A DNA stretch of 64,000 nucleotides from positions 2,418,001 through 2,482,000 of the forward strand of contig NZ_CP107853.1 of assembly GCF_036013525.1 (NCBI RefSeq), written 5' to 3'. Below, in pieces: positions 854-4,995 of the stretch (position 1 is its first letter; every line of letters starts with the position of its first letter). The notes beneath the pieces are model-generated. The model was not told the origin of the DNA. It saw only the letters and a list, made by a program, of their open reading frames with translations, and did not search any database. This DNA comes from Nonomuraea sp. NBC_00507 (GTDB lineage: Bacteria > Actinomycetota > Actinomycetes > Streptosporangiales > Streptosporangiaceae). A program made the translations under genes and the position numbers.

Positions 854-907
854 ATGGTAATTCCGCCTACTTAAGCGGGTAGAGTCCCTTTCAACAACTG
901 CATATTG

Positions 908-1045
908 CTCATCCAGAGGGGCGGAGGGACCGGCCCTGCGAAGCCCCGGCAACCCTCCCGGCTTGTGACTCGCGACAGGGCGAGGCCGACCGGGACAAGG
1001 TGCCAATTCCGGTTCGCGGTCAAGGTGGCCGCGGGCGAAGATGAG
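908..1045 (+). promoter_or_regulatory. SAM-I (S-box) riboswitch
   Basis: The leader carries the SAM-I aptamer core. AGAGGGGCGGAGGGAC (915-930) is followed by CGGCCCTGCGAAGCCC and the CGGCAACC block (about 931-953), and later by the GGTGCCAATTCC block (999-1010). The closing P1 helix is visible as CTCATC (908-913) paired with GATGAG (1040-1045). The 3' strand of P1 runs directly into the GAGGGAAGG ribosome-binding site (1043-1051) of the gene starting at 1061. This suggests that SAM binding blocks translation, with no need for a terminator. Known: SAM-I aptamers shut off methionine/SAM genes when SAM is plentiful. Inferred: the translational mode. Confidence 0.9.
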
Positions 1046-1060
1046 GGAAGGCCTCGCTTC

Positions 1061-2296
1061 ATGTCGCTCGACTTTGGTCCTGCTGTCGCTCTGTCCTGCC
1101 GCGAGTGCGGCACGCGCTACCCTCTCGGCCCCAGCTTCGCGTGTCTGGAGTGTTTCGGGCCGCTCGAAGCGGCCTACGAATTCGGCGCCGTGACCCGCGC
1201 GGACATCGAGTCCGGTCCCGCCAACATCTGGCGCTACCGCTCCCTGCTGCCCGTGCCGGCCGACGTCGCCACCAAGCCCAACATGAACCCCGGCTGGACC
1301 AAGCTGGTCAAGGCGGGCAACCTCGGGCAGGCGCTCGGCCTGAAGTCCCTGTACGTGAAGGACGACTCCGGCAACCCCACCCACTCCTTCAAGGACCGGG
1401 TGGTGGCCATCGCCGTCGAGGCGGCACGTAACTTCGGTTTCCACACGCTTTCCTGCTCCTCCACGGGCAACCTCGCGGGCGCGGTCACGGCCGCCGCGGC
1501 GCGGGCCGGGCTCGACGCCTGCGTGTTCATCCCCGCCAACCTCGAAGCCGCCAAGATCGCCATGGCCCGGGTGTTCGGCGGGAAGCTGATCGGGATCGAG
1601 GGGACCTACGACGAGGTCAACAGGTTCTGCTCGGAGCTGATCGGTGACCCTCTGGGCGACAAGTGGGGGTTCGTCAACGTCAACCTGCGGCCCTACTACG
1701 CCGAGGGCTCCAAGACGCTCGCGTACGAGATCGCCGAGCAGCTCGGGTGGCGGCTGCCCGAGCAGATCATCATCCCCATCGCCTCCGGGTCGCAGCTCAC
1801 GAAGATCGACAAGGGCTTCAAGGAGCTGGTGGCGCTGGGGCTGGTCGAGGACACCCCCTACAAGATCTTCGGGGCGCAGGCGGCCGGGTGCTCGCCGGTC
1901 TCCACCGCCTACAAGGCCGGGCACGACGTCGTCCAGCCGGTCAAGCCGGACACCATCGCCAAGTCGCTGGCCATCGGCAACCCCGCCGACGGGCCATACG
2001 TGCTCGACATCGCTCGCCGCACCGGAGGGGCCGTCGAGGACGTCACGGACCCCGAGATCGTGGCCGCCATCAAGCTTCTGGCCTCGACGGAGGGTATTTT
2101 CGCCGAGACTGCGGGCGGGGTTACCGTGGGCGTGCTGAAGAAGCTCGCCGAGAGCGGGCGGCTCGATCCCGAGGCCGAGACCGTGGTGCTCAACACCGGT
2201 GACGGGCTCAAGACGCTCGACGCCATCACCGGCGACGACGCCCAGCCCACCGCCGTGATCCGGCCCTCTCTCGACGCGTTCCGCGCGGCTGTCTGA
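1061..2296 (+). CDS. metM: Threonine synthase-like PLP enzyme, probable O-phosphohomoserine-dependent homocysteine synthase (MetM-type)
   Basis: A 411-residue fold-type II PLP enzyme homologous to threonine synthase. It has an N-terminal zinc ribbon (Cys13, Cys16, Cys28, Cys31), and the PLP lysine is Lys111 in NPTHSFKDRVV. Canonical bacterial ThrC usually reads NPTGSFKDRG here, so two active-site loop positions differ. Two contexts argue for a methionine role: a SAM-I riboswitch directly upstream and a MoaD/ThiS-type sulfur carrier 23 bp downstream. From memory, a Streptomyces threonine-synthase homologue of this arrangement (MetM with carrier MetO) converts O-phosphohomoserine to homocysteine with carrier-bound sulfur. 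True ThrC is the alternative and is how automatic annotation would label it. The start at 1061 is set by the GAGGGAAGG site 9 nt upstream. Confidence 0.8.
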   Translation: MSLDFGPAVALSCRECGTRYPLGPSFACLECFGPLEAAYEFGAVTRADIESGPANIWRYRSLLPVPADVATKPNMNPGWTKLVKAGNLGQALGLKSLYVKDDSGNPTHSFKDRVVAIAVEAARNFGFHTLSCSSTGNLAGAVTAAAARAGLDACVFIPANLEAAKIAMARVFGGKLIGIEGTYDEVNRFCSELIGDPLGDKWGFVNVNLRPYYAEGSKTLAYEIAEQLGWRLPEQIIIPIASGSQLTKIDKGFKELVALGLVEDTPYKIFGAQAAGCSPVSTAYKAGHDVVQPVKPDTIAKSLAIGNPADGPYVLDIARRTGGAVEDVTDPEIVAAIKLLASTEGIFAETAGGVTVGVLKKLAESGRLDPEAETVVLNTGDGLKTLDAITGDDAQPTAVIRPSLDAFRAAV

Positions 2297-2319
2297 CAAC
2301 CAGGAAAGGCAAGATAACC

Positions 2320-2595
2320 ATGAGCGTTTCTGTGCGGATCCCCACGATCCTGCGCACGTACACCGGGGGGAACGCGGAAGTGAGTGGCGAGGGCGCGACG
2401 CTTCGTGACGTGCTCGCCAAGCTCGACTCCGACTACCCGGGGATCGGCGCGAGAATTCTTGATGAATCGGGCAAGATTCGGCGTTTCGTCAACGTTTACG
2501 TGGGAGAAGAGGACGTCCGTTTCGCCGAGGGGCTCGACACTCCCGCCCCTGAGGGCACTCAGATCTCCATCATCCCGGCGGTCGCCGGCGGTTGA
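2320..2595 (+). CDS. metO: MoaD/ThiS-family sulfur-carrier protein (MetO/CysO-like)
   Basis: A 91-residue beta-grasp protein ending in the diagnostic Gly-Gly (PAVAGG), the tail that is adenylated and thiocarboxylated to carry sulfur. Its sequence resembles mycobacterial CysO (SIPTILR start, RFVNVYV strand, EDVRF). CysO partners cysteine synthase CysM and a Mec-type peptidase. Neither is here; the partner is the riboswitch-controlled threonine-synthase-like gene 23 bp upstream. That favours sulfur delivery for homocysteine rather than cysteine or molybdopterin. It shares the SAM-regulated transcript, which ends at the terminator at 2617. The ATG at 2320 has a GGAAAGG site upstream. Confidence 0.82.
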   Translation: MSVSVRIPTILRTYTGGNAEVSGEGATLRDVLAKLDSDYPGIGARILDESGKIRRFVNVYVGEEDVRFAEGLDTPAPEGTQISIIPAVAGG

Positions 2596-2616
2596 GTGCG
2601 AGAGGTCACATCATTG

Positions 2617-2648
2617 GAAGGCGCCCCTAGTGGGCGCCTTCTCCTTTT
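2617..2648 (+). terminator. Rho-independent terminator after metM-metO
   Basis: A perfect 10-bp stem, GAAGGCGCCC (2617-2626) with GGGCGCCTTC (2632-2641), a 5-nt loop, then TCCTTTT. It closes the SAM-riboswitch operon 22 nt after the carrier-protein stop. Confidence 0.85.
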
Positions 2649-3198: not shown

Positions 3199-3225
3199 CT
3201 TGCACTCGGCAGGGTAGAGTGCTAA
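3199..3225. promoter_or_regulatory. CIRCE operator, copy 1 (HrcA site)
   Basis: CTTGCACTC (3199-3207), 9 nt, GAGTGCTAA (3217-3225). The right arm is a perfect match to the CIRCE consensus GAGTGCTAA and the left arm is two changes from TTAGCACTC. Spacing is the canonical 9 nt. It sits about 145 bp upstream of groEL and probably overlaps the promoter core. Confidence 0.75.

Positions 3226-4995
<1,770 letters not shown>

Follow-up and report, generated by a model that had tools for sequence, protein, structure and literature searches.

A 64,000-nucleotide (nt) stretch of Nonomuraea sp. NBC_00507 (contig NZ_CP107853.1, positions 2,418,001–2,482,000 of the forward strand; the window hereafter) carries a two-gene unit, metM–metO, preceded by a class I S-adenosylmethionine (SAM-I) riboswitch. 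We consider it very probable that this unit serves homocysteine synthesis and that its translation is repressed by SAM, a claim that does not include the pseudoknot described below. More tentatively, and at what we judge to be just short of an even chance, the metM leaders of actinomycetes would represent a distinct SAM-I architecture in which an arm of helix P3 reaches past P1 to the spacer between the Shine-Dalgarno sequence and the start codon, with no separate expression platform, while a local spacer hairpin would present the Shine-Dalgarno sequence at low SAM. The gene pair, the pathway and the presence of a riboswitch are already known, and the Nonomuraea locus is a further instance of them. 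According to PMC12172450, a homocysteine synthase of Streptomyces, MetM, was identified by Hasebe et al. 2024; the same source names metO as the sulfur-carrier gene of S. albulus and places a SAM riboswitch upstream of metM in that species, which bears out the Streptomyces MetM/MetO route named in an initial annotation of the window made from the sequence alone. In S. lividans an RF00162 element precedes a two-gene 'threonine biosynthesis' unit and is one of 22 elements, 21 of them with RNA-seq support (PMC8079986); we take this pair to be the metM–metO orthologue. The locus is composed of the following features.

906..1047, + strand: SAM-I riboswitch aptamer (RF00162), a covariance-model match.
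1061..2296, + strand: metM, a ThrC-like pyridoxal phosphate (PLP) enzyme of 411 amino acids (TIGR00260, PF00291), proposed to be an O-phosphohomoserine-dependent homocysteine synthase.
2320..2595, + strand: metO, a ThiS/MoaD-like sulfur carrier of 91 amino acids with a GG end (PF02597), starting 23 nt after metM.
2616..2642, + strand: terminator-like hairpin after metO (-21.7 kcal/mol, z -4.55).

The aptamer and P1 helix that had been read by eye before metM were recovered by the RF00162 model (69.5 bits against a gathering threshold of 44.4, E 3.7e-14, full model positions 1–108), with P1 at 908–913/1040–1045, and this is the sole gathering-level Rfam match within the 64-kb window. The P4 helix is aligned to the Rfam model and has 11 bp in the predicted fold, and the element does not conform to SAM-IV (RF00634), as RF00162 was the clan match retained and P4 is present. 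We therefore identify the element as a SAM-I riboswitch for which SAM binding is predicted. The MetM protein scores 266 bits with the TIGR00260 threonine synthase model and 227.8 bits with PF00291, and because the TIGR00260 cut-off of 167.1 is exceeded, routine annotation would indeed call the gene thrC, as had been foreseen. The altered PLP-lysine loop noted earlier was also found, with MetM reading NPTHSFKDR and the two other ThrC-like proteins of the genome NPTGSFKDRG. Among 105 metM-type proteins including that of the window (parsed from 110, with five not parsed), the histidine form occurs in 97, NPTGSFKDR in two and other letters in six. The metM protein of Nonomuraea sp. G32 matches that of the window at 100%.

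MetO was correctly read as a MoaD/ThiS protein ending in Gly-Gly (PF02597 56.8 bits; C-terminus AVAGG). Its best NCBIfam model is SAMP1 at 55.9 bits, slightly below the cut-off of 60, and it shares 54% identity with the genome's own CysO-like protein. Of the single terminator proposed after metO, the stable hairpin stood, with a weak T tail and no score in the terminator scan. MetO C-termini vary among 108 loci including the window, with GG in 78, GGC in 21 and other short extensions in nine (L098, L099, L113, L131 and L140 are among the GGC or extended examples); before thiocarboxylation the extended forms would have to be trimmed, perhaps by a JAMM protease.

The host genome (12.9 Mb in two contigs) contains PF00291 in 22 places, 21 of them above the cut-off and one of those only jointly with its frame neighbour. 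Using the window MetM as the query we found two more ThrC-like genes, both of which exceed the thrC cut-off, so that the suggested check for a second thrC returned two: L010 (36% identity), which is 25 nt from thrB (TIGR00191, 211 bits), and a third copy, L011 (34% identity). The window protein is thus neither the sole nor the thrB-linked threonine synthase of this genome, the thrB-linked ThrC being encoded elsewhere. L011 itself (G000:C1:7892946-7893959, +; TIGR00260 288.5 bits) lies away from thrB, and the open reading frame adjoining it looks by eye like a regulator. Searches of the genome found neither MetX (best score 26 bits, spanning 49 of 351 positions) nor MetA. The check for the absence of metB, metX and metY was accordingly borne out for MetX, but metB-like enzymes are present, with PF01053 (Cys/Met PLP enzymes) found in 11 places, four of them full-length. 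There are three ThiF-family matches, of which the single full-length one is MoeZ (729.6 bits), and the sole Prok-JAB match, in a JAMM search limited to PF14464, forms a row with the CysO-like protein and a cysteine synthase.

A comparison of 394 genomes of the class Actinomycetes placed these observations in a wider setting. MetM was scored as present at E up to 1e-90 and MetX at E up to 1e-50, the latter because the curated TIGR01392 cut-off was unreached in all 394 genomes and in the controls. MetM is present in 249 genomes and MetX in 242, with MetM alone in 141, MetX alone in 134, both in 108 and neither in 11 (Fisher p 1.4e-24, though the genomes are related and not independent), and the two largely replace each other across the class; the three genomes from the window's genus all have MetM only. 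Of 586 named relatives, the best 80 all have metO downstream of metM, with a cold-shock gene following in 78 of them and groEL in 75 (some contigs end early), and metO adjoins metM in 27 of 29 further relatives labelled only by code, the exceptions being L048 and L060. A SAM-I core pattern was seen in 75 of the same best 80 of 586 and in 11 of the 29 code-labelled relatives; the five named relatives missed by the pattern are RF00162-positive, as are 13 of the 15 code-labelled relatives run against Rfam, while in the leaders of L057, L060, L061 and L063 the core pattern was not found by a pattern search only. A further 60 metM leaders, chosen from 17 families and including 21 of the window's own family, are all RF00162-positive, and the presence of the aptamer before metM is therefore not due to chance. 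Each of the 11 genomes of family f3 with a match, which we take for Streptomyces, has one MetM match at E up to 1e-60, and the listed Streptomyces relatives share 77–80% identity and a common metO–csp–groEL neighbourhood. On these grounds the window metM is a predicted orthologue of Streptomyces metM, with the S. albulus enzyme known to us by description only.

The proposed role in methionine synthesis by the MetM/MetO route is supported because thrC–thrB lies elsewhere, MetX and MetA were not found, there is a negative association between MetM and MetX in the class, metO adjoins metM, and a SAM-I aptamer precedes the pair. An ordinary threonine synthase, with a riboswitch that is incidental or that balances flux into the threonine branch, would account for a TIGR00260 score well above the cut-off, and a Microcystis homologue annotated as ThrC makes threonine in vitro (PMC12172450). 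However, another thrC adjoins thrB, SAM-I precedes metM in every one of the 60 sampled leaders, and the adjacency of metO and the replacement of MetX also count against this explanation, which we regard as highly improbable; threonine synthesis as the function of MetM was rejected on the second thrC with thrB and on the MetX pattern. It is also unlikely, if somewhat less so, that a plant-like cystathionine γ-synthase acting on O-phosphohomoserine makes the methionine and that MetM is auxiliary. The candidate gene, L016, which encodes one of the four full-length Cys/Met PLP enzymes, exceeds a cystathionine γ-synthase cut-off (672 against 513 bits), and searches of the genome gave no homoserine acyltransferase, but L016 is ~1.6 kb downstream of a cystathionine β-synthase gene (L004; 642 bits), which suggests that it belongs to a predicted reverse transsulfuration pathway, and L016 has neither of the two SAM-I riboswitches of the genome, one of which is that of metM. 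Three observations should be held against MetM as the homocysteine synthase under SAM control: 108 of the 394 genomes retain both MetM and MetX, the cystathionine γ-synthase-like gene may leave another route to homocysteine, and the leaders of L052 and L054 gave no RF00162 match among the 20 sources run together against Rfam.

The leader itself is compact, and the parts that bear on its mode of action are these.

908..913, + strand: P1 5' strand CUCAUC, from the Rfam alignment; partner 1040–1045.
978..987, + strand: P3-extension 3' strand GGGCGAGGCC, the proposed pseudoknot strand, from its complementarity to 1050–1059 and compared in relatives.
1040..1045, + strand: P1 3' strand GAUGAG, continuing into the Shine-Dalgarno region, from the Rfam alignment and the sequence.
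1043..1051, + strand: GAGGGAAGG, read from the sequence 9 nt before the ATG, which we take to be the Shine-Dalgarno region.
1050..1059, + strand: Shine-Dalgarno-to-start spacer GGCCUCGCUU, the proposed partner of 978–987 and of a local hairpin with GAAGAUGAGG.

Only 13 nt separate the aptamer from the ATG at 1061, and the spacer stops 1 nt short of it. In the window and in the listed Streptosporangiaceae and Streptomyces leaders the GAUGAG strand of P1 abuts a purine-rich Shine-Dalgarno sequence near the start, while in leaders L190, L191 and L194 of family f8 GGAGG directly follows P1 instead. Transcription attenuation is common among SAM-I riboswitches, and two metM leaders from outside the class, L055 and L056, have a hairpin with a U-run between the aptamer and the start codon (read from the sequence), which suggests attenuation there and possibly a change of expression platform within the phylum. 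In the window leader, however, P1 continues into the Shine-Dalgarno region and the terminator scan found no site in the 13 nt available; attenuation was rejected here for want of space and of a terminator-like site, and we hold it to be very unlikely.

The proposal of a P3–spacer pseudoknot originates in the complementarity between the P3-extension strand (978–987) and the spacer (1050–1059). We parsed 141 leaders (that of the window, 80 named and 60 code-labelled), which fall into 66 genus-level groups made up of 19 named genera and 47 genus codes, so that one genus may count twice. An uninterrupted P3–spacer helix of at least six Watson-Crick pairs is found in 101 of the leaders and 40 of the groups, including all 33 Streptomyces and all 13 Nonomuraea leaders. 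When one leader per group was used in a swap test, the 66 leaders scored 5.88 with their own pairs and 5.31 (standard deviation 0.12) with swapped pairs, the former value being reached by none of 5000 swaps, and shuffled P3 inserts scored 4.66, although it should be noted that shared ancestry inflates all of the swap, motif and column figures given here. The difference held in both the 37 Streptosporangiaceae-type groups (P 0.0024) and the other 29 (P 0.0046), and among the 60 code-labelled leaders (5.60 against 4.97, 0 of 5000 over 47 codes), in 30 codes outside the window's family (P 0.0008) and when each of the 17 families was represented by a single leader (P 0.045). The motifs GAGG in P3 and CCUC in the spacer also occur together: 33 groups have both, one has the P3 motif only, 15 the spacer motif only and 17 neither (Fisher p 3e-6), with corresponding counts of 19, 1, 11 and 16 for the 47 codes (p 1.4e-4). 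Family f8 is divided in this respect: both motifs are present in L194, and such a helix is missing from the other five leaders fetched.

Covariation was examined in anchored columns, a plain MAFFT alignment having been dropped because P3 differs in length among clades and their GAGG strands did not line up. P3 was anchored on GAGG and the spacer on CCUC, each blind to the other, giving 90 leaders in 33 groups; this omits the 51 of 141 leaders that do not have both anchors and leaves the four anchored pairs untouched by the column test. At the second position beyond the anchor we found 53 C-G, 26 U-G and eight G-C pairs with three mismatches (0 of 4000 permutations), and the sum over five columns was significant (P 0.0008). 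The eight G-C leaders (L148, L149, L150, L152, L154, L157, L158 and L161) represent six genus codes. L155 and L156, from one genus, differ by corresponding changes on the two sides, strand and spacer, and L156 has one base inserted. Two side observations concern the same elements: L181 has a different complementary pair, P3 insert UGCGUACGA with spacer UCGUACGUG, a possible re-invention of the pairing, and in L150, L152 and L158 the spacer CGCC and a GGCG right after the start may form an alternative start-codon hairpin.

Several results count against the pseudoknot. Of the 66 groups, 26 lack the helix or have only a short one, and Sphaerisporangium retains the spacer with most of the P3 strand lost. 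Within the window's family alone (17 codes) the swap test gave P 0.051; only one flanking column covaries significantly, the other six singly giving P 0.10 to 1.0, and the exchange of C-G for G-C may have been one event. Folding predictions for the eight exchange leaders give the P3 base a partner inside P3 in six cases and the spacer base a local partner in seven; in L150, L152 and L158 that spacer base belongs to a CGCC-GGCG hairpin spanning the start codon. The view that neither P3 nor the spacer hairpin pairs the exchanged position was dropped, since it is paired in most of the predicted folds, and for this reason we lowered our estimate for the pseudoknot from a little better than even to a little under it, and modestly raised that for its chief rival, which stays well short of even and the less likely of the two. 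According to this rival, P1 and local spacer hairpins alone repress translation and the P3–spacer match is a by-product of CUCG shared between the inner stem of P3 and the spacer. It agrees with the retention of the spacer CCUC without the P3 motif in 15 of the groups, with the predicted folds of the exchange leaders, and with the calculated energies, in which the gain from the pseudoknot is small and a competing local hairpin in the Nonomuraea window, GAAGAUGAGG-loop-CCUCGCUUC, has -11.5 kcal/mol. Among 21 chosen leaders, with the pseudoknot penalty and SAM energy left out, adding the pseudoknot to P1 gave anything from a gain of 7.7 kcal/mol to a loss of 3.4; for the window leader the gain was 3.0 kcal/mol before any pseudoknot penalty, and thermodynamics was not decisive as proof of the pseudoknot. 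Against a by-product stand the advantage of own over swapped pairs across genera (more weakly across families), the near absence of P3 GAGG without spacer CCUC (one group and one genus code), and the contrast in family f8 between L194 and the other five leaders. Structures within P3 and local to the spacer could each explain one side of the exchange, but not obviously both together.

SAM binding stabilises P1 in SAM-I riboswitches, and initiation is blocked when the Shine-Dalgarno sequence or the spacer is paired. We propose that MetM would draw O-phosphohomoserine from the threonine branch and receive sulfur from MetO in the form of a thiocarboxylate at its Gly-Gly terminus, with the MoeZ of this genome as the probable loading enzyme, giving homocysteine and from this methionine and SAM, with the riboswitch closing the loop by repressing metM translation. 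With SAM bound, P1 would form and tie up the start of the Shine-Dalgarno region, and the spacer GGCCUCGC would pair with GCGAGGCC in the P3 extension, such that the pseudoknot clamps the region from the Shine-Dalgarno sequence to the start codon (off). Without SAM, GAUGAGG would pair locally with CCUCG, leaving the Shine-Dalgarno purines in the loop and metM translated (on). The aptamer, the gene pair, its genomic setting, the substitution of MetM for MetX and the conservation of the P3–spacer complementarity are established by the present analysis. The enzyme chemistry and the part played by MoeZ are inferred, and the P3–spacer pairing itself, the order of the RNA states and the assignment of the on state are likewise suppositions of the model.

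The locus has the layout of MetM/MetO, with a ThrC-like enzyme beside a sulfur carrier and a SAM riboswitch upstream, as in S. albulus (PMC12172450), but it belongs to another family and is known here from sequence alone. A MetM/MetO pair standing in for acyl-homoserine methionine synthesis fits both the Nonomuraea genome, in which MetX and MetA were not found, and the pattern across the 394 genomes. The mycobacterial cysteine route of CysM/CysO, with its JAMM protease, similarly combines a PLP enzyme with a Gly-Gly sulfur carrier, but MetM is ThrC-like rather than cysteine-synthase-like and metM–metO is predicted to be SAM-controlled. The leader has the full SAM-I aptamer with P1–P4 and core and differs in its candidate extra pseudoknot and very short expression platform; lack of an additional pseudoknot is listed among the traits of SAM-I in PMC7270179. 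According to PMC6890682, PK-2 of SAM-IV joins a strand within P3 to the 3' end and P4 is lacking. Both arrangements would thus pair a strand within P3 with a segment 3' of P1, but SAM-IV has no P4 and has P5 before the PK-2 strand, whereas the window leader has P4 and the proposed partner is the spacer between the Shine-Dalgarno sequence and the start. The Xanthomonas SAM-I riboswitch also acts mainly at translation, but uses a separate hairpin for the Shine-Dalgarno sequence and AUG and senses tRNA (PMC7270179). SAM-I/SAM-IV variants without the P2 internal loop were described in 2010 (PMC2864571), and in a 2005 survey neither methionine nor threonine operons of actinobacteria were found to be preceded by a conserved RNA structure (PMC1262725). 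Among the open-licence papers ranked highest in each literature search (the top 12 to 15 of 13 to 319) we recognised no description of the P3–spacer pairing, which is weak evidence of novelty.

Two further observations were made in the course of this work. The second SAM-I match of the genome, L015 (G000:C1:502843-502933, -; 62.5 bits), is immediately upstream of a gene for a GNAT acetyltransferase (PF13302), after which comes a flavin-reductase-like gene, and here too GGAGG continues from P1. In the window, positions 3199–3261 before groEL contain two inverted repeats resembling CIRCE operators (read from the sequence).

MetM passes NCBI's curated threonine-synthase cut-off, and annotation by TIGR00260 thus misreads methionine synthesis, a misannotation made concrete by the way in which MetM takes the place of MetX in the class. 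The gene pair and pathway alone are not new in kind, and the possibly new part is the candidate P3–spacer pseudoknot. If this is true, it would link SAM-I structurally to SAM-IV, a SAM-I aptamer would repress translation with almost no added sequence in these actinomycetes, Streptomyces included, and the metM leader could serve as a compact SAM-responsive control element.

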